A stretch of 64,000 bases of DNA, taken from Henckelia pumila (lineage: Eukaryota > Streptophyta > Magnoliopsida > Lamiales > Gesneriaceae). Shown piece after piece: positions 1 to 19,000 of this stretch; the stretch's first letter is position 1; the number at the start of each line of letters is the position of its first letter. The stretch spans positions 85,330,151-85,394,150 of the forward strand of contig NC_133120.1 in NCBI RefSeq assembly GCF_033568475.1. Reading direction: 5' to 3'. The notes under the pieces are model-generated. The model was not told the origin of the DNA. It did not search any database and worked only from the letters and a program-made list of their open reading frames with translations. A program made the position numbers and the translations under genes.

Positions 1-2466
1 TATCATCCCATACATGATACTCCCTATGGCTGACGCATATGGTATGTGTGCCATTTTCTCTATCTCTTAGTCAGTCTTGGGACACATAGACTTGGATAGA
101 GAGACTTCATGACACATAGGTAGATGTCCTCTCTTGGACTCATCCATTGAAAACCTTTTCAATATAGTGTCGATGTAGGTAGCTTGAGTAAGTTCTATCA
201 TTCTCTTAGATCTATCTCTATAGATCTGTATCTCTAGAATATAGGACACCTCACCCAAATTCTTCATCGAGAATCTACCTGACAACCATATCTTTGTTGA
301 CTGCAACATCCCTACATCATTCCCAATGAGTAAGATGTCATCAACATAAAGTACTAAGAATGTCACAGCATCCTTAACTACTTTCTTGTACACGCACGGT
401 TCCTCCGGGTTCTTGATGAAACCAAAATCCTTTATTGTTTCATCAAATTTTTGGTTCCAACTTCTTGATGCTTGTTTGAGACCATAAATTGATCTCTGAA
501 GCTTACATACCTTATGCTCGCTTTCCATGGATGTGAATCCCTTAGGCTGCATCATATAGATTTGTTCCTTAATGTTTCCATTAAGAAATGCAGTCTTCAC
601 ATCCATTTGTCATATCTCATAGTCATACCATGCTGCTATGGCAATAAGGATTCTTATGGACTTGAACATTGCGACTGGTGAAAAGGTTTCATCATAGTCA
701 ACTCCTTGTCTTTGAGTATAACCTTTTGCCACCAATCGTGCCTTGTAGGTCAGTACCTTTCCATCAGGCCCAAATTTTCTCTTATAGATCCATTTACACT
801 CTATTGGAACAATTCCATCGGGAGGATCTACTAAAGACCAAACTTGGTTTGTATGCATCGAATCTATTTTCGACTGCATAGCTTCAAGCCATAAATTCGA
901 ATCCGCATCAGAAATTGCTTTCTTGAAGTTTCTTGGATCACATCCAATGTCGGGTTCACTTTGATCCCCTTCAAGAAGAAGACCATATCTAATAGGAGGT
1001 CTAGAAGTCCTCTCGGATCTTCTAGTAATAGGCGTGTCTTGTGATGATTCTTGAGGTATAGGATCGTTATTTTGTATCTCGGGTTCTTCTCGAATTTCTT
1101 TGAGTTCCATCATCTTGCCTTTCTTATCCAATAAGAACTCCTTCTCCAAGAAGATGGCATTCCTTGAAACAAACACTTTTGTTTCAGTAGGATGATAGAA
1201 ATAATATCCGATTGAATTCTTCGGATACCCTACAAAATAACATAAAGTGGATCGACTATCCAACTTATCTTCCACTGTCTGCTTCACGTAAGCAGGACAT
1301 CCCCAAATCCTCAAGTACGAATACTTAGGAGCTTTGCCATTCCATAACTCGTATGGTGTTTTGTTCACTGCTTTAGTGTGGACATTGTTCAACAACAATA
1401 CCGCCGTTTCAAGAGCATAGCCCCAAAACGAAGGTGGGAGCTCAGTGAAGCTCATCATAGATCGAACCATGTCCAACAAGATTCGATTGCGACGCTCCGA
1501 AACACCATTCAGCTGAGGTGTCATAGGAGGAGTCCACTGAGAGAGAATCTCATTCTTTTTTAGATAATCCAAGAACTCGGTACTTAAGTATTCTCCACCT
1601 CGATCAGATCGAAGTGCTTTAATACTCTTATCTAGTTTGTTTTCTACTTCAGCCTTGAATTCTTTGAACTTTTCAAATGATTCAGACTTATATTTCATCA
1701 AATATAAGTACTCATAGCTAGAATAATCATCAGTAAAGGTAATGAAGTAGGTATGACCAAATTTTGTACCAATACTAAATGGTCCGCAAACATCTGTATG
1801 GATCAAATCCAATAGATTTTGACTACGCTCAGGTTTTCCTTTGAAAGGAGATTTAGTCATTTTTCCTTTCAGGCAGGACTCACAAGTAGGTAGAGAGTTA
1901 ATATCAGACATATCAAACATGCTCTCTCCCACTAGCTTGTTCATCCTCCTTGAAGAAATATGACCTAGCCTAGCATGCCAAAGGTTTGCCGGGTTTTGAC
2001 TATCGATTTTACTTTTGTTCGTTGTTACCGGTTTATCAACATAATTTATTGGAACGTCTTTTAATTTTAAGTTATATAGATCGTTTTCAAGTTGTCCATT
2101 TCCAATTAAACATTCATTCTTGTAAATATTGCAAATCTCATTCACAAAATTGCAAGAAAAACCATCTCTATCAAGCATAGAAACAGAAATAATATTTTTA
2201 ATCAAGTCTGGAACAAATAAAACATCTTTCAAAAGTAACTTAAAATCGTTCTGCAAAATTAAATAAACGTCTCCCACAGCTTTGGCTTCAACTCTAGAAC
2301 CATTTCCGAGCCTCAGCTGGGTCTCACCCATCCTAAGCTTACGACTTCTTGTCATTACCTGCAAATCATTGCAAATGTGAGATCCACATCCGGTATCCAA
2401 TACCCAAGAAGTAGTATTAAGTGAAACATTTATTTCAATGTAAAACATACCCTTTGCAGTTCGCAA
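1..2466 (-). mobile_element. pol region of the left Copia element (protease, integrase, RT; partial)
   Basis: Minus-strand coding region of the first Copia element. Near its start is the aspartic protease signature with DTGCGSH. Then come a GAG-pre-integrase zinc-binding segment with LWHARLGH and the CxxC motif, an integrase core with the HTDVCGPF and SDRGGEY stretches and the conserved late Glu, and reverse transcriptase including the YVDD catalytic box. RNase H should follow and lies left of the window. The domain order is diagnostic for Copia rather than Gypsy. This is a fossil or possibly recent element, not a host gene. Confidence 0.88.
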
Positions 2467-2478
2467 CTGCTCGAGATA

Positions 2479-3306
2479 TTACTTGCAGTTACGTTTCCAA
2501 TGATCGGGTTTCTTGCAGTGATGACAAGTATCATCATCTTTGTTCCCGTTAGAAGCCTTTGTCTTGCCCTTCTTCTTCGGTACTGTTTTCTTTGGTGGGG
2601 CAGAACGTTTCTTACCCTTTCCATTTGGCCCCTTCTTAGAGTTAGAAGAGGAGCCAACCAAGAGTACCGGTTTATCCTTCTTTAATGTGGCTTCATAAGT
2701 TACAAGCATATTGACCATCTCTTCAAGGGAGGCCTCTATCTTGTTCATTTTGAAATTCACCACAAAACCGTCAAACGATGAAGGAAGAGAGAGAAGTAAT
2801 AAGTCCACATTGAGTTCATGCTCTAATACCAATTCAAGCGTTACCAACTTCTGAATGAGCCAAATCACGTGTACCCCATGATCACGGACCGAAGTTCCTT
2901 CACGCATGCAACACGTCATTAACTCTTTTACAGTAGCGAACCTTTCAGCTCTCGATTGAGCCCCAAAAAGTTCCTTGAGTTGTGCATGAATGTCAGCAGC
3001 ATTCACGGTATCCTCAAATCGCCTCTGGAGTTCATCAGACATCGAAGCTTGCATATAGCATTTGGCCTTGATATCATGGTCCCACCATTTATCAAGTTTG
3101 GCCAACTCTTCCGGACTTATATTAGCTGGTGATTCCTTCGGAGGAGATTTTTCTAACACGTAGAACATCTTCTCCGAGGTCAAGACAATCTTCAACTTAC
3201 GGAACCATTCCGTATAGTTTGCGCCAGTCAGTTTGTTTTGTTCGAGAATAGAGAATAGTGGATTGCGTGAATTCATCTTAATGAAATACTGAAAAGAAAC
3301 AGACAA
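2479..3306 (-). mobile_element. gag region of the left Copia element
   Basis: About 275 codons on the minus strand. The N-terminal half is the plant Copia capsid type (LTGANYTEWFRKLKIVL, UBN2/retrotran_gag family). The C-terminus is Lys-rich and ends in a CCHC-type zinc knuckle (CHHCKK...HWKRNC). It lies just upstream of pol in element orientation and downstream of a non-coding leader. Gag packages element RNA into virus-like particles. Confidence 0.87.
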
Positions 3307-5000
3307 TAATCAGTTATTGTTTAATTAATTTACTAAGACATAAAATAAGGCGAAATTTATTTTATGAATCTCACTCCCACTATTTTAACGATTTCACTAC
3401 CCTCTAGTGAAAACGAGAAATATTTTCTTTAGTGGGAACATGGAGTCCAATTGACAAACTATAGTCCCGAATAATATCAGTCAACCATAATTTTCAAATG
3501 GTAGAGCCCAATTGCTTCCAAAGCAACCTCCATGTTTTTACCTCATGTCCAATAAGGGCCCAATAATATGACGCCGTTTATTGTGACACGTCAAGATGAC
3601 CCATCAATATTAAGTTGTGATGTACGGTCGCCATGTGGATCCCCAATAATATGAGCCAATCTCATGAGAGTTCCATCCAACTTACAACATGTGTCGATCC
3701 AATGTACAGCTTTCCGACGAACGGGCCCCCCAATAATATGAGCCGGACCGTATCCGCGGGTAGCATCTCATACATTGATCGTTGATGGAAGGTAGGAACA
3801 TTTAAATAATATTTAAATTTCCTTTATTTATCTTGATATCAATTTTAAATCATATTTAAAATGAGGGATTTTTAATTTTGAAAATTTGTCTCATCATTTA
3901 AAATTTGTATGCTTGCGGGATTCATACAATTTAGTCTAAACATGCATACAACAATAATATCATATATTATTTTAGGATGATCGATTCCATTACTAATCGA
4001 CCCTTGGTTGCCAATCACGAGTCTAAGTCCAATCCTAGGTAATATGCAAGTATGCAATGCAATCCTATTACATTAAGCTTCCAATTTACATTTCTTCGGT
4101 CTTTATCATTGCTTGCTGGTCCCACCTCCATCTTCAAAATCTCCCACTATTTCTAGTGAATTTACAATAAATTATTATGACAAATAAAGGGATACATTAT
4201 AGGGGTGGGAACGGGTCATAAACCAGGCCCACTTTTATTACAAATGATAAAATCAAATTTGGGCCATAAACCAGGCCCATTAATAAAATCCAACAATCAA
4301 TAATAAAGCCAAATGTAAACAACCTAACATACACCTATAATATTGTTCATGGCAATCGATCATCCTTATCCAATAATATTTAATTCAAAAATTAATTTAT
4401 TGGACATCATGCAATGACAATAAATATAAATAGATAAAATCATATTTCATACATAAAATCTTATTTTATATATAAAATCATATTTTATCTAGTTTATCCA
4501 TAAAATCATATTTTACATATAAAATCCAATTTTATACATAAAATCATATTTTATTATCAATTGTACCAAAATTAATAATTAAAGATTTAATTTATTGGAT
4601 TAAATTTATAAATTTCCAAAATTCAAAATTTATCCAAAAAGTAATTTTTCTTAAAAATTTTGGACTCAAACAATTTTGACCCATTGCCTCGTGGACCAAC
4701 TGAAACAATTTTTAATTGGGCCAAAAACTGGGCTCGATAACAATTAACGGGCTGAAATTCAAAATTTCAAAAAATTAAAATTTTAATTTTTCTGGGCTGC
4801 CCGAGACGATCTCGGGCAGTCCCCGACAATCGGGCCGGGGGCCCAGCCCTTCGCTGGGCCGCTCGGCGCGGCCCAGCTGCGCGCAGGGCAGCGGGCAGTC
4901 CCCACGGAAAATTAAATTTTTTTTTTCGTTTTATTTTTCTGAAAAATCGAGGCTTGTACAATTGAACAATATTTTAATCGTAAAATCCGAGAACATCCTG
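3307..5000 (-). other. Untranslated leader of the left Copia element
   Basis: Non-coding stretch between the primer-binding site and gag. It holds about four degenerate repeats of roughly 83-92 bp, each carrying the motif CCAATAATATGAGCC or a close variant (near 3468, 3560, 3643 and 3730). It also has repeats of the type taaaatcatattttat (about 4436-4560) and a GC-rich patch (about 4795-4905). I see no supported gene here. Confidence 0.6.
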
Positions 5001-5012
5001 GCTCTGATACCA
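5001..5012 (-). other. Primer-binding site, left Copia element
   Basis: Plus strand gctctgatacca, which is TGGTATCAGAGC on the element strand. This is the standard initiator-methionine tRNA primer site of plant Copia elements, one base from the LTR edge. Confidence 0.85.
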
Positions 5013-5013
5013 C

Positions 5014-6871
5014 TGTTGGAACACGGTCGTTTTCCGGATCGAAAAAAAAAGTGATACCCGGTGCAGCGGAAGTTTTAAATTTTTATATGAAATGATTTCA
5101 TATGGATATCAAATTCCTACGATTAAAATTGATAACATAAAATTTAAACAATATAAATTTTACCTTAAAATCTCGAAGCGAGATTATGGACACCAACAGA
5201 TTAAACTGCTCTTGTTGTATATCCCAAGAACTGATGAACGAACAATTCTTCAATCAGGTCCACGAACAGAAGTTTAATCTCTCTGATAGACTGCACTAGA
5301 AAGTCTATCAGAAGTTTCTACGAAGAGATAGAATAGATATGATCTGTTAAATCAGTCTGCAAATTCAAAATTTACAGACTGAATTTTCGAACACTGTGAG
5401 AGGGAGAGGGAGGGGTCGGCCGAAAAACCCTAAGAGAGAGCTCTCTAGGTTTTCGAAATTTTGACCTGTGTTGTCTAATTTCTGCACTGCAATAACTTAT
5501 TTATAATGTGGGCTGCTAACAGCTTAGGGCCCATTAGTCATAAGTTCAATCCTGACAAGCAAAGCCCGCATGTTCAGAAATTAATATAAAATTCATCGTG
5601 ACTCAAATTGATAAACCAATTTCACCAATGTGCACAGAAACCATTTCTGCATCTTTTAAAGTCAAGATAAATTTTCTAAATCCGAATTCAGTGATTTCCA
5701 AAAATGTCCATCACTATATCATTTTAGGAAATTTTACTCCCTCTACTTTTAAATAAGAAGTCCCACTTCTTTATTCACTAAATTTAACTCTTTAAATTTA
5801 ATTATCTCAACGGGGATTAAAAAATCCATTACTTGTGTGACCCTCAATGGTTCAGGGATACAGCTAGCCGTGGGCTCACAACTCCTTGTGACTCGGAACA
5901 ATAATTTCCGACTTGCCCATCGAATCATGGTAAGAGCGCCTAGCAACATCGCCCCATGATTCCCTAGGTATCACTGATAGTGCCTGCAAGAACCAATAGA
6001 TTTTGGTTAGCGTATAGTACGGTCCCTTCATCCATATATCCCGATCGAATCAACAACCATTGGTAAATCAAGAGTCGTTCGAGATTCGATAACTATGCAA
6101 TGCATCTTGAAGATCAAATAATGACATCTCATGTGCTACTAGGAAACCAAGTAACCTAAAACACATCATGTACTCTGGCCAGAGATTCGTCACACTAATA
6201 TCTCCTCAGATTGCATAGGATATCCACACTTGCAAGTATGTGGTGAATCCTTGACAACAAAGCATCGACTCCTATATGTGTCATAACTATACCCAATCCC
6301 GACACCTGATGACCTCAATAGAGTCGGTAAACGAGTCAAAGTACAGTACTAGCATATAGAGTCTCAATGATGTTTCAAGTAGTAAGGACTAATGGTGTAC
6401 AACCAAAACCGCGGACTTTATCCACTCGATAAGTGATAACCACTTGGAAAGTCCGGATAGGATAGTTCGATCATTCATCATATGAATATCCATTTGCATG
6501 CTTTGAACATCTCTATGTTCCATACCAATGAAACGTGGTACTCGGCATCGCAAACGCTAGTCTCAATCTCGAGCGATCCTTATCCTTATTAACGGACGAC
6601 TCAATCGACCAGGAACTGTTTAGAATATACAGTGACTTTAAGATGTGTTTCATGATAGTCATCCTCATGTGCTACCACATCTTACATACACTATAGTATA
6701 TTCAAGGTCTTCATCTAAACATCTTATAGTATGTCACAACATAATAATATGATAAAAGATAAAGTAAATGTCATTATAAAAGTGTAAATTATATTAACCA
6801 AAAGATTATTTATACATAGAGTCATAAAAGCCCTTAGCCACAAGTTGGCTCACCGGGCACCCACTCTTTCA
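5014..6871 (-). repeat. 5' LTR of the left Copia element
   Basis: On the plus strand it runs from TGTTGGAACA, directly after the tRNA-Met primer-binding complement gctctgatacca, to a terminal ...CACTCTTTCA. It therefore has the TG...CA termini of an LTR. The element-sense start resembles the GTGGGTGCCCGGTGAGCC type seen in plant Copia LTRs. Length is about 1858 bp. The flanking 5 bp at 6872 are gtatc; the matching copy would lie outside the window. Confidence 0.8.
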
Positions 6872-8186
6872 GTATCCAGCTTGTCTCTTGGATCGGCGAG
6901 TTAATGGTTTTGTGGGAAACATCTTATTCACCACGCTCATGTCTGGTAAATTCTCTACATCGATGGCATTGCCAGGCTCTCCTGGAGCGATGGAGTCCAG
7001 AGGCACAGGTTTCTCGGCAACAGGAATGATTGCTTGCTCAACAACAGGGTGTGGTGATATAGGTGCTGTGACACCTTCTGCAGCATCTTCCTTATATCCT
7101 GTCTCAGAACGAATATCGTGTGAATCAAAACCCTTTCCAGCCATTAGAATATGAAATAATGAAGGACACATAAATTTTGAGCAATCTGAAAAATCGGGAG
7201 AACAAAGAATACAGTAAAGCGATACGTAACAAGGAAGTAGAATATTTTCTTAAACAGATAAGAACACAGATATATTAGGCACCAAATCTTTTCCTATTCT
7301 AGCTCGGATTCTGAGTAGGCTCCAACGGTAACAAAATCCCAAACGGTAACTCTTCAAAAATGGTAACAAATCCGATTTAAAATAGACAATAAATCCCTTG
7401 ATTTTCACCGATAATCTAGGCCCAAATATTTCACCAAATATTACCAAAATTAACTAATCATCATAATATAACACCATTGTAACAAAATCCAATCACTTTC
7501 AAATTCAAAAATTCAGAGGATAGGGCAAAAATCAAAATTTTTATTTGACCAGAATTCGTAACCTTTCGGCCAAATATATTCACAAATATGCATGCCCTAA
7601 TTATGTCTAAAAACAGAGTGTGACATAAAAATAAAATGCAATTTTATGCACAAATAAATGTTGACAAGTGAGATGTTATCCACGATGTTGGCAACATCTC
7701 CCAGCAACAATTCAGGATTCAGAAAAATTATTATATCCAATTCATTATTTTAGCAGAAGTGGTAGCCTGCACACTAAAGGAACGATCTTCAAATGGACCC
7801 CTTTAGGTAGCTTTTTCCATTTGCTTCTGATTATCAATCAAATTTGATGATTGATTCAATTCAAGCTTCATCATTTTTTTTGTTCTTTTGTTATTCTGAA
7901 TTTACAAAGTCACTTTTCACTTGGGACATGATCATGGAATACACGAACGTCCCTCCACTACTTCGTGACTTAGTCAGAACTCTTCTTCAATTTATCCGAA
8001 TTAAACTATAAAATATTTTGCAAAGAATCCTGAGTGAAAACTAGTCAATGGTTACAAAGTATCAACCACATCACAAAACAGAATGAATGCATGAATGCAG
8101 TATGCCTAAGATCCTAAAAATGCACATGCATGAAAAGGTGTTGTCACAGAGTGTTGGCAACACTCCTGACAACATCTCGGTTCTGT
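6872..8186 (-). other. 3' region of the SIRE-like element with env-like ORF remnant
   Basis: Sequence downstream of pol in element orientation. An open stretch at about 6872-7171 (minus) reads a Pro/Val/Glu-rich segment ending KPLTRRSKRQAGY, directly truncated by the left Copia LTR. SIRE-type elements are known to carry an extra env-like ORF here. I see no transmembrane pattern in the remnant, so env-like refers to position only. The rest is AT-rich and non-coding. Motif copies lie at 7671 and 8137. Confidence 0.5.
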
Positions 8187-11100
8187 CTATAATGCACACA
8201 TACTGAGAGACTTTCTTAAACTGGAAAATCTCTCGAAATCCAAAGCTTTTGTGAATATATCAGCTAATTGGTTATTAGTTCCAACAAACTCAATTAAGAT
8301 CATGCTTTTCTCGACCAAATCTCGAATGAAGTGATGTCTAATGTCAATGTGTTTGGTTCGAGAGTGTTGTACTGGATTTTTGGATATATCAATGACACTA
8401 GAATTATCACAGTACATAATAGGAGTATCACTCTTAACACCATAATAATTTAGCATTTGATTCATCCAAAGGAGTTGTGAATAACAACTACCAATAGCAA
8501 CATACTCAGACTCGGCAGTAGACAGTGAGACATAATTTTGTTTCTTACTATACCAAGATACTAAGTTATTCCCCAAGTAGAAACATCCTCCCGAAGTGCT
8601 CTTCCTCTCATCTAAATTCCCAGCCCAATCAGCATCACTAAATCCTACCAAATTCGAATTGGTTTCTTTAGTGTACCACAAACCCAAATTCAAAGTTTCA
8701 GCCACATATTTTAGTATTCGTTTCACAGCTTTCAAATGAGTAACTTTTGGGTTAGACTGGTATCTAGCACACAGACAAACACTATACATGATATCAGGTC
8801 TAGTAGCACTTAAATACAAAAGACTACCAATCATGCTTCTGTAGAGGGTGTTGTCAACACCTTCGGCAACATCCTCCCTAGACAGTTTTTCATTCGACCC
8901 CATAGGTGTACGCATGTGTTTAGTGTTGTCATTCAAAAACTTCTTTACAAGATTTTTAGCATACTTGCTTTGGTACAAAAATATATCATCATACATTTGT
9001 TTCACTTGCAAGCCCAAAAAATATGTTAAATCACCAACCATGCTCATCTCAAATGTAGAAGACATACACTTCACAAAATTATCAATAAGTTTATCATTTG
9101 AAGCACAAAAAATTATATCATCCACATAAATTTGGCAAATTAAGATATTATCTTGATACTTTTGTACTAACAAAGTCTTATCAACTTCACCTCTTTTGAA
9201 GCCAATATTGAGCAAGTACTCAGTAAGTCTCCCATACCATGCACGTGGTGCTTGCTTCAATCCATACAATGCCTTTTTTAACTTATACACATAATCAAGA
9301 TGATTTGGATCCTCAAAACCTTTAGGTTGTTTCACGTAGACTTCTTCATTTGGGATCCCATTCAAAAAGATACTTTTTACATCCATTTGATAAAACTTCA
9401 TTCCCATGTTACATGAAATAGCAAGCAAAAGTCGGACTGACTCAATGCGGGCTATAGGAGCAAAGGTTTCATCAAAATCCACCCCTTCAATCTGTGTGTA
9501 CCCTTGAGCTACCAACCTAGCTTTATTTCTAATGATGTTTCCCGACTCATCAATTTTATTTTTAAAAATTCATTTAGTTTTTATGACATTACCATGAGCA
9601 GGACACGGTACCAAGTACCAAACATCATTCCTAACAAATTTTTCTAACTCTTCATGCATAGCATTGACCCAAAATTCATCTTTTAAAGCCTCTTCAACCT
9701 TTTTGGGTTCAATGTTTGACACGAAACAAGAGAATCTTACCTGAGAATACGTAGAACTCATGCACAACAAACCTGCCATCTTTCGATAATCCACTTTCTC
9801 TTTCCTTCGAGTTTGAAATTCTCCATGTACATCTCCAATGACCTGTGAGGTTGGGTGGTTCTTCTGAATTCTGCTTGAAACATTCTTTCCAGCTTCATTT
9901 ACCTCACTGTTCTCATCAATATTCTCATCAGTAGGCTTTTCAACTTTTGATTTTGGATTTTCTGTAGGAGGTGTTGTCAAAGGTGTTGGCAACACTCCTT
10001 TGACAACATCTAAATTTCCAGAATTATCCAGTAGATCATTAACTTCATCCTCAGCTGTTTTCTTCTTTAGATCTGCAAAGTCATCAAAAACAACATTAAT
10101 TGACTCAAAAATAGTCCTTGTTCTCAAGTTATACATCCTATAGGCTCGGCTATTTGATGAATATCCCAAGAACATACACTTATTACTTTTTGCATCAAAT
10201 TTAGCAAGATAATCCCTATCATTCAAAACATGACATACACATCCAAAAACATGAAAATATTTAAGGTTTGGCCTCTTTCCCATGAGAATTTCATAGGATG
10301 TCATAGTCGTATCATTCCTCAAATAAACTCTATTTGAAATATGACATGCAGTATTCAAGGCTTCAGACCAAAAACGTTTTGAAATATTTTTTGAACTTAA
10401 CATCACTCTTGCCATCTCTTGCAAAGTCCTATTTTTTCTTTCAGCAATTCCATTTTGTTGTGGAGTTTTAGGAGTAGAAAATTCATGATAAATACTTTTC
10501 TTATCACACAAGCTAGTAAAAGAAGAGTTTTCGAACTCCTTACCATGATTAGTGCAAATACGGATTACCTTCAGATTATGTAGATTCGTAATCTTAGTGA
10601 GTAGTTTCTTGAAGGCATCAAATGTGTCTGATTTTTCTCTCAGAAAATTTACCCAAGTATATCGTGAGAAATCATTCACACAAAAAAAATAATATTTCTT
10701 ACCTCCAAAGCTTTCAACATCCATTGGACCCATCAAGTCCATATGTAAAAGCTCAAGGCAGCGTGTTGTCACAGATGTTGGCAACACCTCGTGTGACACC
10801 CTAGTCTGCTTCCCTTTCTGACATTCTTCACAAACAAATGGAATACCAGATTTTAAGTTAGGCATACCTATTACAACATCTAACTTACTTAAGTTTTTTA
10901 GTGTCTTGAAATTTGCATGCCCCAATTTTTGATGCCATAGATCAAACTCATTAACTTTGGTGTGTCTACAAGCCATCTCTTCTCCGAGTTGATAGCAGTT
11001 GTTGGATGACCTAGTACCTGTCATGACACAGAGATTTGAATCATCAAAAACTTTGCATAATTTCTTATCAAATTGCACATTCAAATTATCATCACAAAGT

Positions 11101-12203
11101 TGGCTTATGCTTATTAGATTTGCGGTTAATCCTTCAACATGAAGCACATTGCGAAGCTTGGGCAGACCAGCAACATTCAGAGTTCCCTTTCCAACAATGT
11201 TTCCTTTTGAACCTCCACCATAGGTTACTTTTTCACTTTTCTGTTCAATATAGTCAGTGAAAAACTTTTTGGAACCTGTCATGTGACGAGAGCTACCGCT
11301 ATCAAAGTACCATGCACCTGAAACATTAGTTCTCAAAGCAGTATAAATCATATGACATTGAATATCAGCTTTTGGTACCCAAATCTTTCTTACATAAGAT
11401 CTGTTTCTAGGGATGTTGTGGGAAGGTGTTGGCAACACCTTAGGCAACACCTTCGATGCAGATCTATACCTGTAGTCTTCCTGCAGCTTAAAACAGTACG
11501 ATTTAATATGACCAGGTCTATGACAGTAGTGACATATGTACCTACGTTTCCTTCTAGACATTGAAGGAGCAACAGGCCGTGGTTTTGGTTTTGGAGGATC
11601 AATAGGTAAGGCCTTTCTGCTTGAGCTTTTTGTACTGCTTCTTTCCTTGACAAACACAGGGTCTTTCGAACTTTCACCAACCTCAAATATGTTGTTTTCA
11701 AAACCTAAATCAGTCTTACAATCTCTTCCCATCATGAGTAGCGAATCAAGCTTGGAAGTGCTTGAATTAAACTTGGCCAAAGTAGCATTTTTTTTTCCGA
11801 GTTCTTTCTTCACTTGACTTAATTCCATGTCTTTCTTACTCAGCATGACTTCCAGTCTTGACACATCAGCCTTTAGATCAGAATTTTCCTTTGAAAGAAT
11901 AGTATTTATCTTATTTCTTTCAACCCAATCAGTATGTAACTCTTCAAACATCATCCGAGCTTCTTCCATGGACATTGTCTCTTCACCTGTATCATTATCA
12001 CACATATTATCAGTAATGGAGGAATTCAAACAAACTGACCTTTGGGAGATGTTGCGGCTAGGTGTGGCAACACCTGTGGCAACACCTAAAGGATTGACTT
12101 GAAACTTTTTCTTGCTCTTCAGTAGAGCAGATAAGGCAGTATGACTTTCTTCATCTTCTTGTTCTTCTTCTTCAGACTCTCCATCACTCAAGGACGTGTT
12201 CAT
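8187..12203 (-). mobile_element. gag C-terminus and pol of the SIRE-like element
   Basis: Minus-strand coding region. In order: an acidic, coiled-coil-rich gag tail; a CCHC zinc knuckle (CHYCHRPGHIKSYC); protease (FDSGSSRHMTG); GAG-pre-integrase (LWHQKLGHANFKTL); integrase core (LLHMDLMGPM, later FSTPKTPQQNGIAERKNR); reverse transcriptase (YVDDIIFC); and RNase H (SDADWAGN, STAESEYVA, ending near LADIFTKALD). Five palindromic-motif copies fall inside this region at 8846, 9967, 10761, 11411 and 12047, all between domains. Confidence 0.88.
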
Positions 12204-15200
12204 TCCTTTCTAAGCATGTTGGCACACTCATTTGCATAGTGTCCAAAACCTTGACAAGCATGACATTGAACAATGTCCAACTTCTTTGACACAAACTTCT
12301 TCTTCCCTTCCAACATCAGTCGAGGCTTAGGAGTATCAACAGGTTTTCTTGGTGATTGTTCTGGTCCAGTAATCCTTAAAGGCTTGTTAGAGAACATTGG
12401 AGCCTTGAGTTTTTGATCCGTCTTTCTCGACTCTTTATAATCATTGAATTTCTTAGTCATAAGAGAGATCGAATCATCTTCCAAGTCAGATTGACGAACT
12501 TCTTGATGAAATTGGACATACTCCTCATATGAGGGTTTCAAGGCTTGAAGGGCTATTGATTTTCCTTTATCCTTCTCTTGTTCTGTATTGTTCATCTCAA
12601 AAACTTGAAGGATGCTAATCAGTTCAGTCATCTTCATCTTTGAAGTGTCTTTTATTTCTTCAAGTGCCCAAATCTTCCCATTGAATCTTTTAGGCAAAGA
12701 TCGAAGAACCTTGTTGTAAGGCCCGAGATTATTTAATTTTAATCCGAAAATATTTAATTTGGGAATATTTAGAGTTTAGAATTAAATTATAATATTCTTA
12801 AATTGAAAAGGATGGAAATTGAATTAAATCGTTTTTCCGGGGACTGAATTGCAAATAGCCAAAAGTTCAGGGACTAAATCGCAAATATGTAATATATATC
12901 TTGAACCCACTTATTTCTTCAGCTACTTCACGTGTAACATCAGAAAGAAAAGAAAAGAAACAGCTGAACTCGATCAAACCCTTTCCCACGCCATTTTTGT
13001 TCCGAAAAAGCTCCGTTATCTCGCGCTCCGGTTGTCAGAAATTCCAGATAAATATATATCTGCGATCACAGCTCCGAGACCTTCGATTTGGTACATGTTT
13101 TATTCACATATCTCAGATTTTATTTTTATGTGAAAGATGGAAAATTATGATTTTATCATATATGCGTATATCAGCTGTACCGATCGTGTATTCGCAGACG
13201 GTTCGAAAAAAGACTGTCGTTCGGATTTTATATGAATTTGGGAAGAATAATTCGAACACTACCATGTTTGATTGATACTGATTTTTATGGTAATGAGATG
13301 ATATGTTAGAGATTATAAGTTATCTGGATTGTTGGATTGATTTGGATATTGTTTGGATTGCCGGTTTTAGCCGTTATGCCGTCGATTTGCAAAATGTCAA
13401 GACTTTGATATTGTTGATTGAACGAAGCATGGTTTGAATGGCATCTGATCTTTTTAGTTATTCGATATGTAATTTATCAGCTTTCTATCAAAGTTGCCGA
13501 ACTCGAGATCTCCGAGTCAAACCGAGAAGGATTTGAAGCAAGGTTTGCTAGCATTTGCACTTGAGATTGAGTTGAGAAGTGGAGCAACCTTTTGATATTA
13601 ATTCTCATTGATGTACTTGCAGATTTGAAGTACTTTCAGACGTGACATAGAAAGGTATAAATGACAGCAAATCCAGATGGGATAGAACGCTTGAAATAGC
13701 TTTCATTTCAAGTATTCCCATGTCAATCACATACTTGTTTCTTTATATTTCTTATGTGATTATTTGTTTGTATTGCTTTGTTTGCTTATATGCTTAGTTG
13801 TTCAAGATGTGTTTTATAGCTTTTAATGCATACAGCTTATGTTGCATTCATCTTGAACTCCAGCCTTAATAGCACAGAGGGCAGCCATCGCCTAGAGTGC
13901 AGATGACGTTTGGAGAGCTGTAGTGAGTGGCATGGAATATAGATTTATTTATAGAGTCAGCTTGACTCATGGCACATAATATGGATTTATGTTCAGAGCC
14001 AGAAGACTCACTATAGTTGCACCAAAGTCAGAGGACTAAAATACTTGATGCCGCCTCGAATGGGAGTATCGATGGTTTGATAGTTATTTTATTCCTCGGG
14101 ATCCCAAAGAACTAAGTTTTATTGATATCAGCTTGATAGCCTTCCTTTGCCATTTGCATTGCATTCACGTTTATTATCTCGCGTTTAAAGTTGTTTATAC
14201 TGGGATTTTATTCTCACCGGAGTTATCCGGCTATTGCTTTGTTTTGTATGTGTGCATGGCAATAGGTGGGGCAGGAGCTAGTCAGAAAAGACAAGGATAG
14301 CTCGAGATTGAGGCATAGCAAGTGAGGACACGGGCTTAAGTAGCACGACTTGTACTTTATGTTGTTGAACCATGCTAGAAGTGATACAAGAACTTTGTAT
14401 ATTATGGCTTGAATACATGCTAGTTTATGTTTATTATGTTTAGAAGCTTGTCAGACGTTATAAGATAGCATGTATTTGATTTTGTAGCATGTATAAAAGA
14501 TTATGACTTGTTTATCCATTCTTTGGCAGCAGATTTTTGATAGCATATTCCCCGATCGAGCGAGACTCTGCCCTTTAAAACAAAAAAAAAAAATTTTTAG
14601 CTTTTATTTCTTTAATTCTTTTAAGTACTTGTTTAATTGTTAATTACAATAAATTGCCCTAAGATAAGATTAGCAACCCGGGTCCCCACACTTGTTCACC
14701 ATAGTTTCACTCGCAATAGGTCCTCCAAGAGCATGCGCCTCTGTATCTATCTCCCTAAGTTTCTTATCATAATCGGCAATAGATTCATTCTCATCCATCC
14801 TGATATTCTCAAATCTTGCGTTTAACAATCTCAATCTTGTTCTTCTCACGCTATCAGTTCCTTCACAGTGTTCTTGAAGAGCATCCTATGCATCCTTAGC
14901 AACAGTGCAATCAGCTATGATTCCATACATCCTCATATCAATAGTTGCAAAAATTGCATTGAGTGCTTTAGCATTGTAGCTTGAACTTTGTGTTTCCTCG
15001 GCAGTCCAAGTTTCTTCTTGCTTGATGATGTAGTCTCCATCTTCATCTAGCGTCTTTGGAGGAGTCCAACCAGTCAGAATACTTTGCCAAGCACGAACAT
15101 CCATAGCCTTAATAGTATATTGCATCCTATTCTTCCATAGTGCGTAATTCGTGCCATCAAGGACCGGAGGTTTCAGGAACGAGTTCGCAACAGACGATGA

Positions 15201-15206
15201 GTTCAT
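12200..15206 (-). mobile_element. gag of the SIRE-like element, split by a solo LTR
   Basis: The N-terminal part (14886-15206) has the DUF4219/UBN2 start (LDGTNYALWKNRMQYTIK). The C-terminal part (12200-12697) has a zinc knuckle (CHACQGFGHYANEC). The halves are separated by the 1976-bp LTR at 12715-14690. Both belong to one gag by orientation, family and matching target duplication. This is a virus-like structural gene and a fossil. Confidence 0.82.
12715..14690. repeat. Solo LTR of a Gypsy-type element in SIRE-like gag
   Basis: Runs from TGTAAGGCCCGAG to GGGTCCCCACA, giving TG...CA ends, with the 5-bp duplication CTTGT on both sides (12710-12714 and 14691-14695). It holds no gag or pol and no primer site, as expected for a solo LTR left by recombination between the LTRs of a full element. 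Its ends resemble LTRs of plant Gypsy chromovirus elements (Tekay/Del type); that assignment is from memory. The perfect duplication and clean ends suggest a fairly recent event. Confidence 0.85.
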
Positions 15207-15279
15207 CTTATTCCCTGTAATAAAATAAACAAACCAAGATCAGTTCTTAGTGTATCAAGAAAATAGCTCTGATACCACT

Positions 15280-16088
15280 TGTAAGGGATAAGGGTTGCAC
15301 ATAAACTGTTTGAGGTGTTGTCACAAGGTGTCGGCAACACCTACAATAATACCTTGAGTAATTTGCAGCAGAATATATTTAAAGCGTAAATAAAATAAAC
15401 AAGCAGCTAAATAAATAGACTCAATATGATTTAAGCAAGAGTATAAAATACTCTTGCAGCGCCTCAGGGCAAAACTTCACTAGAAAAATAAATCAAAGAG
15501 TTTTACAAACCCTAAAACTAGTGATTATTGTAAAATTCAATTTCTCAAAACAAGTGAGAAAATAAAGAGTAAAAGTTCTCCTAAAAACATTCTATATGAA
15601 ATAGAATAACGAAAAATAAAGTAAGGAGAAAAATCTTGAAGCCAACAACACGTGAGATGAAAACACTCTTCGATCAACTATTTTCAAGTGTTCTTCACGG
15701 CTTCAAATAATCACGACCGATACAAGCTTCAGCAGCTATTTCTCAATGTACATATATTGAAGCTTAAGAAACTCACGACCTCTCTCCCTTTTGGTCGGTC
15801 ATGCCTATCTCAATATATAGGTAAAGAATCCTTCTTCAACATATTTCCTTGTAGACATAGGATTCTAGATCTTGTTCTTTTTTTCAAGTCAAATCTACAT
15901 AGTAAAGGAATTAAATCATTAGAGATAAGATAATAAATATTATGATAAACTTAATCATATCTCAAATCAAGTTAAGCAAGGAAGTAAATAACTTATTTAA
16001 AATTACTTCATGTCCAAGAAAGACAAAAGATATTAAATAAAATCTTTTTAAAAATAGGACGATTTTAAGGAATAAAATATTTTTTTCA
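15280..16088 (-). repeat. 5' LTR of the SIRE-like element
   Basis: Starts TGTAAGGG two bases after the primer-binding complement gctctgatacca (15266-15277). Ends near ...TTTTTTTCA at 16088, where RNase H coding sequence of the older Copia element begins. Length about 809 bp. The right edge is set by that coding junction and the terminal CA, so it may be off by a few bases. One palindromic-motif copy lies at 15312-15352. Confidence 0.65.
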
Positions 16089-19000
16089 CCATAGATTTTC
16101 CAAGAAACACACAAAAACCAATGGTGGATTTTCGTGTGTCCAAGCATGCTCCCCAATCAGCATCAGAAAAAAAAACTAAGCTTGAGATTGGAATTAGAGC
16201 TATAAAGAAGACTTTGCCCAGCTGTCCCCTTTATGTATTTCAAAACATTATGCACATCCTCCATATGAGAAACACGAGGCTTAGACACATATTGGCTCAA
16301 ATTATTAACTGAATAAGTCAAATCCGGCCGTGTAATTGTAAGATACAACAACCTTCCAATCAGTCTTCTGTAAGACAAAGGATCAGCTAACAAATCTCCA
16401 TATTCTTGACTCAATTTCATATTAATATCCATAGGAGTGGTCCGTGGCTTACATCCAAGAATACCTGCTTCATTAATCAGCTGTAATGCATAATGTCGTT
16501 GACAAATAGAAATTCCACTATTTGAACGTGCAACTTCGATTTCCAAAAAATATTTCAACTCTCCCAAATCCTTCAAACAAAACTTGCTATTGAGAAGTAT
16601 TTTAAAATCAGCTGCTTCCTTCTCATTATTTGTAGCAATAACTATGTCATCGACATAGACTAATAAAGCCAAGAAAATATCTCCATGATTGCGAATAAAC
16701 AAGGAATTATCTGCATGAGATTGCACAAAACCAAGATTTATCAAAGTAGAAGAAAACTTTGTAAACCATTTGCGAGATGCTTGTTTAAGACCATAGAGCG
16801 ATTTGTGTAACTTGCAAACATATCTTTAGGTAAACATTCCCCATATCTGTAATATCCCGGAGGCAGAGACATATAAACTTCTTCAAATAAATCCCCATGT
16901 AAAAAAGCGTTGTTCACATCAAGCTGGAACAAAAACCAGCCACGTGCTGCTGCAAGAGCTAATAAGGTTTTAACAAAAACAAGCTTAGCAACAGGAGAAA
17001 AAGTTTCAAAATAATCAACACTCTCTTGTTGTGTATATCCTTTTGCAACGACCCTAGCTTTATACCGTTGCAAAGTGCCAACAGCAGAAAATTTAGCTTT
17101 GTAAACCCAACGACACCCAACCACAGTTTTGCCAAATGGGAGATAAACAATAGATTGTGTTGTAATGCTCGAAGCTCTTCAGTCATGGCTTGTCTCCATT
17201 CGGGCAACACAACAGCCTGATAAAAACTTTGAGGCTCGATAATGGAAGAAATATTTGAGACAAAAACACAAAAATAAGGTGACAACTTCTGATCATTAAG
17301 AACTGATGATAATGGGTGTGCAGTAGAAGATTTTGTATGATGATTAACAACATAACATTGATAATCACGAAGATGAATAGGCTTGGAAATAAGACGTTGA
17401 GACCGAGTTTTACCAGGTGTAGTGGGCTGAGCATAATCATGGACAATATGTGTTGGAACAGAACATGTAGGTAATACCCGATTAGAAAAATATATCAAGA
17501 TCATCAAGAGTACGCAAATATTTGTCAAGAAACGGAAAAATATCCTCATGAAAAATGACATCCCGAGAAATATAAAGTTTATTTGTGTCCATATTCAACT
17601 GTTTATAGCCTTTATATCCCGGTGGATACCCAAGAAAAACAAACTTAATGGCTCTAGGAGAGAATTTTGAACGAGAAGAAACAAGAGTAGACCCATAACA
17701 TAAACAACCAAAGTTCTTTAAATGTGAATATGTTGGATGCTTCTGATATATCATTTCAAAAGAAGTTTTATGTGAAATAACTGGAGAAGGAGTTCGATTA
17801 ATGAGGTAAATGGCTGTGATAACACACTCATTCTAATATAATAGAGGAATTCCAGATTGAAACAATAAAGCACGAGAAACATTAAGGATGTGTTGATGTT
17901 TTCGTTCAACAACAGAATTTTGTTGTGGACGTTCAACACAAGAGTTGAAATGAATAATGCCTTTGTCCATGAAAAAATTGGTAAATTGGAGTTTTAGAGC
18001 ATTATCACTTCGAAATGATTTTATCTTTTTGTCAAATTGAGTGTGAACCAGAGAGTAAAAATCTGGAAAAACAGTGGACACATCAGATTTTAATTTCAAA
18101 ATGTATATCCAAGTGAATCTATTGTGATCATCCACAATAGTAAGAAAATACTTGAACCCTTCAGTCGTAATTGGAAGAAAAGGACCCCAAATATCAATGT
18201 ATACAAGATCAAAAACATTATCCCAACGTGTGTTATTTGATATAAAGGGTAATAACTTTTGTTTAGAAGGATGAAAAATAGAACAATGTGTTAAATCTTC
18301 ATCTATTGGAGTGAAATGTAATTCAGTACCTATATCAAAAAGTCTAGTGGAAGATGGATGTCCTAGTCTAGAATGCCAAAGTGTTGTTCTTGATAAGGAA
18401 ACATTACAAACTTTTGCAGAAACACATGAATCTGTGAAGACATACAGATTGCCAACTCTTCTACCCATCCCAATCACCTTGGTTCTGTTGATATCCCGGA
18501 TTTGACAAAAATCAATCATAAAAGAGACGGTACACAAATTCTGCTTTGTGAGAGAACTAATAGAGAGCAGATTAAAACGGAATTTTGGAACAAAAAGCAC
18601 ATCATTTAGTATAAGATCAGGTGAAAGATTAACACTGCCTATGTGAGTGACTGAGACAGAAAGATTATTTGGTAAAGTAACTTTAGATGATATGGCTTTA
18701 TAAGAATGGAACAAATCTAACATACAACAGATGTGATGAGTTGCTCATGTGTCCATCACCCAATCTGAATGTATGATTGAAAGAAAAGACTTTGACAAAG
18801 AATGAATATCATTGAAACAAGACTATAGGCTCTTGTTGTTGTTGTTGTTGTGATGTCGAAGCAGACTTAACCCCAACTTGAAGCTTAGAACTCAAGAACT
18901 CAATAAGTTGTTGGCATTGATTCAGAGTCAAATCATCTGCAGACACATTTGCTATACTACTGATTCCAGATTCCTGATTTGTGCCTGTCCATCTGTGACC

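Follow-up and report, generated by a model that had tools for sequence, protein, structure and literature searches.

Palindromic motifs are already known from Sireviruses, which take up large portions of plant genomes, about 21% of nuclear content in maize (PMC3599292); the apparently new part, in the element treated here, is a body-wide array of dyad sites that continues in frame through gag-pol, and whose function we infer. The element is a single Sirevirus-type Ty1/copia retrotransposon on the minus strand of a 64-kb stretch of Henckelia pumila DNA (contig NC_133120.1, positions 85,330,151 to 85,394,150; 'the window' below means the whole of this stretch), in which a reading of the letters alone, the original prediction, had picked out eight copies of a short palindrome. 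In Bousios et al. 2010, 13 Sirevirus elements carry repeated motifs (RM boxes), with a CGG-CCG core in 12 of the 13; the RM of Tnd-1 is without CGG-CCG (PMC2829016). RM boxes are palindromic, number 8-32 per element, are alike within an element, follow a lineage-specific consensus, and are absent from that study's classic copia elements. Their places are the long terminal repeat (LTR) and, where an element has env, mostly the region upstream of it, the extra linker copies going with the env-like gene; their role was left open (PMC2829016). In maize Sirevirus LTRs, palindromes lie in regulatory DNA and are hotspots of small-RNA mapping (Bousios 2016, cited in PMC5311732).

The H. pumila sites are like RM boxes in being palindromic and in numbering at least 8 copies per element (at score 22: 13 in each of the genomic loci L129 and L144, 11 in each of L138 and L147). 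Unlike RM boxes, they have a TGTTG-CAACA core; each of the five stretches scanned for CGG(0-4)CCG has only 0 to 2 occurrences of it. Whereas RM boxes cluster in the LTR and before env, the sites here are four-part, evenly placed, and found in gag-pol as well. The original prediction had known of no description: for the palindromes of LTR and linker one existed (PMC2829016), whereas gag-pol copies are not reported in the parts of that paper used here. In the open-licence literature, neither a body-wide, even, four-part array inside gag-pol nor a concerted lineage-specific change of one was found; among the papers listed there as containing one of five exact-core strings, none is recognisable, by its title or the start of its abstract, as concerning this motif.

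Two further systems invite comparison. VANDAL transposons share with the present family a short motif that is enriched in one transposon family, rare elsewhere, and present in variants by subfamily or lineage; the VANDAL motif is bound by the element's own protein (PMC5735166). The VANDAL YAGTATTAY motifs are, however, dense, tandem, in one orientation and mainly non-coding (PMC5735166); here the arrays are even and dyad, extend into coding sequence, and have a putative reader. Dispersed packaging signals of RNA viruses (PMC6281560, PMC7793301) likewise consist of many sites over the genomic RNA; those, however, are RNA contacts with coat protein, while here half-site sequence is kept and arm pairing appears not to be.

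Anatomy and abundance of the sites

The motif is a cis-acting nucleic-acid site, which recurs 11-14 times in the fuller copies and sits, in gag-pol, at fixed linkers between domains. Four TGTTG/CAACA half-sites with dyad symmetry make up each site; the sense strand reads GRTGTTG, GRTGTTG, CAACAYC, CAACAYC, and the spacing between half-sites is nearly constant. A survey at score 22 over 20 sources (the window element and 19 loci; L148 gave none) yielded 154 instances, 4 of them from a duplicate in L142. The left spacing is 12 in 124 instances, 13 in 22 and 14 in 8; the core spacing is 8 in 121, 7 in 32 and 9 in 1; the right spacing is 12 in 94, 13 in 48 and 14 in 12.

Within the window, the core GTGTTGGCAACAC, with up to 2 mismatches, gives 16 strand-hits where 0.84 are expected, a number reached by 0 of 100 shuffles; 13 of the hits fall at 7 places in 7685-15340, and 3 at 2 places elsewhere (58990 and 62863). 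This search misses the copy at 12047, because its centre base is absent. A scan of the minus strand for all four half-sites recovers every one of the eight predicted motifs (scores 24.5-28) and adds a weaker ninth at 7061 (score 22), in the env-like open reading frame (ORF); next in rank, shifted registers of the same sites aside, comes 62862 at 20.5, and the best of 10 one-strand shuffles scores 20. The motif is also, as predicted, peculiar to this element in the window: TGTTGNCAACA occurs 6 times in the element and 0 times in the rest, and the other element stretches and the host stretch that were tested hold no comparable G/C-containing dispersed palindrome.

All nine sites are on the minus strand. 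In the sense direction, the first (15314..15353) stands near the 3' end of the 5' LTR, on its U5 side. The five that had been placed in coding sequence are indeed there, all in gag-pol: in the protease-integrase ORF at residue 46 (12048..12086; peptide GVATGVATP), at residue 258, ahead of the protease domain (11412..11451; peptide VLPKVLPTP), at residue 475, between gag_pre-integrs and the integrase core (10762..10800), and at residue 739, past an SH3-like domain and ahead of reverse transcriptase (RT; 9970..10010); and in the RT/RNase H ORF at residue 221, past RVT_2, with a degenerate right outer half-site (8835..8873). The seventh lies directly past the pol stop codon (8137..8176), the eighth in the linker ahead of the env-like ORF (7672..7711), and the weak ninth at residue 35 of that ORF (7048..7087), a residue that also has a copy in 8 loci at a score of at least 21.5. 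The three copies assigned beforehand to the LTR and 3' region are thus one in the 5' LTR, one past the pol stop and one in the linker; no 3' LTR of this element was found within the window.

Over the H. pumila genome (884,658,702 bp) there are 2410 exact cores, against 2 for the reversed control, and GGTGTTGNCAACACC is found at 1746 places, against 0. Among the first 8 of the 2410 core matches (L121-L128), 7 overlap protein homology of Sirevirus type, and L127 sits in the element of L128/L131. Judged by the genome excess and these first 8 of 2410 matches, the motif is enriched in one transposable-element family and rare elsewhere, as VANC-type motifs are. Viral contigs scanned with GGTGTTGNCAACACC gave at least 120 stretches; each of the 80 listed has a single site, so the matches are taken as chance, and an RT query against viral contigs found no relative.

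Among the fuller copies at score 22, L142 has 14 sites without its duplicate, and the 13 of L129 include one per LTR. (The duplicate in L142 is recent: 3701-4700 and 8366-9365, 4665 bp apart, agree at 997 of 1000 bases.) Arrays in these copies extend from near the 5' LTR end to immediately ahead of the polypurine tracts (PPTs); the LTR part covered holds one site (two in L142), and the remainder are distributed across gag-pol, linker and env. Spacing is even: the coefficient of variation of the gaps is 0.325 in L129, 0.318 in L138 and L147, 0.187 in L144 and 0.423 in L131, against about 0.9 for random placement (simulated p at most 0.0015 in 7 of 8 elements, and 0.016 in L131). Elements of one lineage (A, below) share site positions by descent and are not independent; L144 belongs to a separate lineage. 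The content of CG follows no clear pattern (38 CG in 4312 nt of half-sites; 1.96 per 100 in whole spans against 1.38 in the loci).

Conservation of position and of nucleotides

The gag-pol sites that could be mapped are confined to five positions, residues 46, 258, 475 and 739 in the protease-integrase ORF and residue 221 in the RT-RNase H ORF; at score 21.5 there is no gag-pol site at any other position. They agree to within 1 residue, except in L147 (42, in one of two overlapping high-scoring segment pairs, HSPs) and L140 (742). Sites 258, 475, 739 and 221 lie between or beside Pfam domains. All five, within one residue, are present in L144, whose identity to the window is 58% over masked pol columns; in the covered parts of each, L141 (54%) has sites 258 and 475, and L131 (62%) sites 46 and 258. 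A tree of elements from this genome, built with site codons masked, supports the groups L142/L134/L126 at 1.00, L144/L136/L143 at 0.91 and L140/L141/L131 at 0.93. Some sites have been lost: L135 is without part of sites 46 and 739, decayed copies remain at 46 in L141 and at 221 in L140, and L131 and L140 are under score 21.5 at site 221.

The original prediction had asked whether number and position vary between copies. In gag-pol the positions are fixed; in the 3' part they vary, and the fuller copies have the 11-14 sites already given. Counted from the site past pol, the 3' sites are at 461, 1095, 1896, 2733 and 3172 in L129, and at 463, 1208, 1937, 2417, 3197 and 3653 in L144. Past the first two sites the positions differ between lineages, and therefore gain or loss happens there.

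The motif is almost certainly kept by selection on nucleotides. Codons were compared over loci L129-L148, in HSPs of at least 42% identity, with site windows of about 14 codons. Below 70% HSP identity, a shared amino acid comes with a shared codon in 119 of 166 cases at sites and in 1551 of 2745 elsewhere; the figures are 185 of 212 and 2554 of 3526 at 70-85%, and 340 of 353 and 6108 of 6742 at 85% or more. Amino acid identity itself, in HSPs below 70%, is lower at sites (0.479) than elsewhere (0.599). By column, over five sites with 11 to 17 rows each, identity is 0.857 in TGTTG/CAACA, 0.693 in other motif columns and 0.744 in the flanks (Mann-Whitney p 2e-7). When the window peptides were re-coded with the codon usage of the element, none of 6000 trials reached the observed motif score at four of the sites, and 13 of 6000 did so at site 739. 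L144 uses other reading frames for its half-sites at 258, 475 and 739, and L126, L134 and L142, which have an RNase H deletion and broken frames, still retain strong sites. That the site had been selected to recur, one of the alternatives offered beforehand, is thus supported by gag-pol position, synonymous codons and half-sites, all conserved across lineages.

The carrier copy and its interruptions

The domain order is that of a copia-type gag-pol, with integrase ahead of RT, as expected of a Sirevirus. The junction of 5' LTR and primer-binding site (PBS), CA/A(T or G)TGG/TATCAGAGC, is present in the window (about 15281-15266), in L142 and in L144; in the window it reads CA/AGTGG/TATCAGAGC, one of those given for Sireviruses (PMC2829016), and the PBS TATCAGAGC occupies 15266..15274 on the minus strand. 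On the same strand, gag comprises an interrupted N-terminal part (14886..15206; weak Pfam matches, under cut-off) and a C-terminal part (12200..12697; zinc-knuckle match under the Pfam cut-off, E 0.0048). The protease-integrase ORF (9570..12203) and the RT-RNase H ORF (8187..9515) follow, both placed by ORF and Pfam, and then the start of the env-like ORF, cut after its first 100 residues by another copia element (6869..7171). At the expected start of the 3' LTR, L129 and L144 have three AGGGGGAG PPTs each and L142 two; the window, whose copy is cut off at its 3' end, has none.

The env-like ORF is open over 655 residues in L138 (7289-9253), where its sole Pfam match is PF20167, Transposase_32, a putative plant transposon protein; no envelope-protein match was found there at E 0.01. 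In RNase H, roughly the same part of 110 residues (about 250-366) is absent in L126/L134/L142 and, separately, in L131/L140; these lineages seem to have lost it either repeatedly or long ago.

Two insertions break up the window copy: a piece of about 1976 bp in gag, and the copia element in the env-like ORF. The first insertion (12715-14690) begins TGTGGGGACC, ends CTTACA, and is bounded on both sides by a 5-bp duplication, ACAAG; it looks like the solo LTR of another element. The second (about 1-6868) has its own TATCAGAGC at 5001-5009 on the minus strand and, in its non-coding part, an AT-rich repeat in 19-bp steps (4415-4573). As this element interrupts the env-like ORF, the window holds only part of the motif array.

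What may read the sites

Overall, these observations are best explained by selected dyad sites that are read by a protein, probably encoded by the element, an account to which we give an even chance. A dimeric or tetrameric protein would read each site, most likely on double-stranded element DNA; the likeliest purpose would be recognition by the element of its own DNA, body-wide, for example to keep it open against silencing in the manner of VANC proteins on VANDAL transposons. An anti-silencing role is tentative and somewhat improbable. The env-like Transposase_32 ORF is a candidate reader only.

Encoding of the reader by the element, and its coevolution with the sites, would be about evenly probable from the sequences; we infer them from a concerted change of the bases flanking the core in two lineages of one nucleus. 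Lineage A (11 sources, not counting the L142 duplicate) has a purine ahead of the core in 99 of 100 instances, lineage B (L144, L143 and L136) in 1 of 29; past the core the mirror change is seen, with a pyrimidine in 91 of 100 instances in A and 1 of 29 in B. When lineage A is reduced to two elements, L129 (autonomous-type) and L142 (deletion-bearing), the counts are 27 of 27 and 25 of 27 (Fisher 8e-15 and 2e-12); L129 against L144 alone gives 2e-7 and 3e-5 for the two flanks. In the set of L129, L142 and lineage B, the outer half-sites have a purine ahead of CAACA in 56 of 56. The interiors of the spacers vary, and block gene conversion therefore fails to account for the flank change.

Several points weigh against selected sites with a DNA-binding reader of their own. 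The model of the env-like domain comes from a 4-row alignment and has a pLDDT (predicted local distance difference test) of 35, and the reader remains putative. Loci were picked for holding at least one exact core, and all data come from one genome; occupancy is therefore biased upward, while the coincidence of gag-pol positions is unaffected. Whole-window nucleotide identity, in HSPs below 70%, is lower at sites (0.633) than elsewhere (0.682): the conserved part is the half-sites only, not whole site windows. The flank test treats sites within one element as independent, and those of lineage A are shared by descent; a mixed group C (L131, L140, L141, L145 and L146; 21 instances) has 11 purines and 10 pyrimidines before the core. 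The centre base on the sense strand is C in 30 cases, A in 8, T in 6 and G in 1 (L129, L142, L144, L143, L136 and L131), a strand bias that a symmetric double-stranded site does not explain. Core positions 1-2 covary, as in a hairpin, and in lineage A the two halves of the core are better matched than when halves are permuted (z -2.7 and -3.3).

The skewed centre base, the covariation and the matched core halves would all fit hairpins dispersed over the genomic RNA, to which Gag or some other protein would bind in packaging, export or assembly, as RNA viruses have packaging signals at dispersed places (PMC6281560); so would the even run of sites from near the 5' LTR end to the PPTs, and a motif RNA that on average folds better than shuffles (mean z -1.85; 42.5% of 127 unique instances below -2). 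The pattern of change mostly points the other way. Inside TGTTG, among 114 unique instances, one-sided changes number 69 in the core and 124 in the outer half-sites, and compensated ones 1 and 0, that is, 193 against 1; over all half-site positions A-C cells exceed G-T cells (52 to 33 in the core, 97 to 61 in the outer half-sites); permuting the right halves barely alters outer folding (z -1.7 to +0.9); and both half-site orientations are kept as sequence. The match between core halves is not found in lineage B (z -1.2 and -0.4), and the z of -9.3 for all unique instances pooled mixes site classes. The folding check proposed beforehand thus favours hairpins on average, while in a 215-nt context several conserved sites (in L129 and L138, for example, those of the LTR and of RT/RNase H) are without a predicted one. 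RNA hairpins are on this evidence unlikely as the explanation, and the sites probably act as double-stranded DNA.

A second alternative places the reader in the host: the element would have recruited a host DNA-binding protein, such as a transcription or chromatin factor. The half-site TGTTG/CAACA is identical across the lineages covered, as a conserved host reader would give, and CAACA is an element of RAV-type factors. A single host reader does not predict, however, that lineages A and B, in one nucleus, should differ systematically in the flanking pair, as a reader encoded by each lineage does; moreover, the sites are found throughout the body, and L144 has, at score 22, none upstream of the LTR-end site, where promoter sites would lie. 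A host reader is on these grounds quite improbable.

It is very unlikely that functionless copying or conversion (by template switching, gene conversion or a mini-transposon) has spread the motif and kept it uniform. The motif is multicopy, with its centre base in one orientation; correction of quasi-palindromes could match the core halves; and the 3' positions of L129 and L144 diverge as described. Against this, the gag-pol positions are orthologous over deep divergence, with no other gag-pol site at score 21.5; spacer interiors differ between sites of one element; the spacing is even; and the RT/RNase H site has brought no change of length, since another copia ORF in the window (16163-16744), where the motif is absent, has 12 residues between KLS and YR as well. 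The suggestion that a short sequence multiplies within the element is thus unsupported for gag-pol, and leaves gain or loss in the 3' part. A recent mini-transposon origin, in particular, is contradicted by L144, which has all five gag-pol sites at 58% pol identity.

Selection for a repeated peptide, such as a linker or cleavage site, is barely conceivable: the gag-pol copies do lie between or beside domains, but the peptides are unlike one another and come from more than one frame, so that the repeated protein site envisaged beforehand is unsupported, more than half of the 11-13 sites in L129, L138 and L144 fall outside gag-pol, and the conservation of synonymous codons contradicts it.

Returning to selected sites with an element-encoded reader, the fullest form of that account would have evenly spaced dyad operators, written by synonymous codons, read by the element's own DNA-binding protein with a specificity that drifts between lineages, and rewritten in concert: a class I code for self-recognition or anti-silencing. 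In this complete form it is possible, though short of an even chance. VANDALs are DNA transposons; if the account is true, the array would be a class I counterpart to VANC anti-silencing. Should the sites be RNA hairpins, a retrotransposon would carry a dispersed packaging code, and we know of no such case. An array at orthologous gag-pol places, rewritten in concert between lineages, makes the role of Sirevirus palindromes testable.

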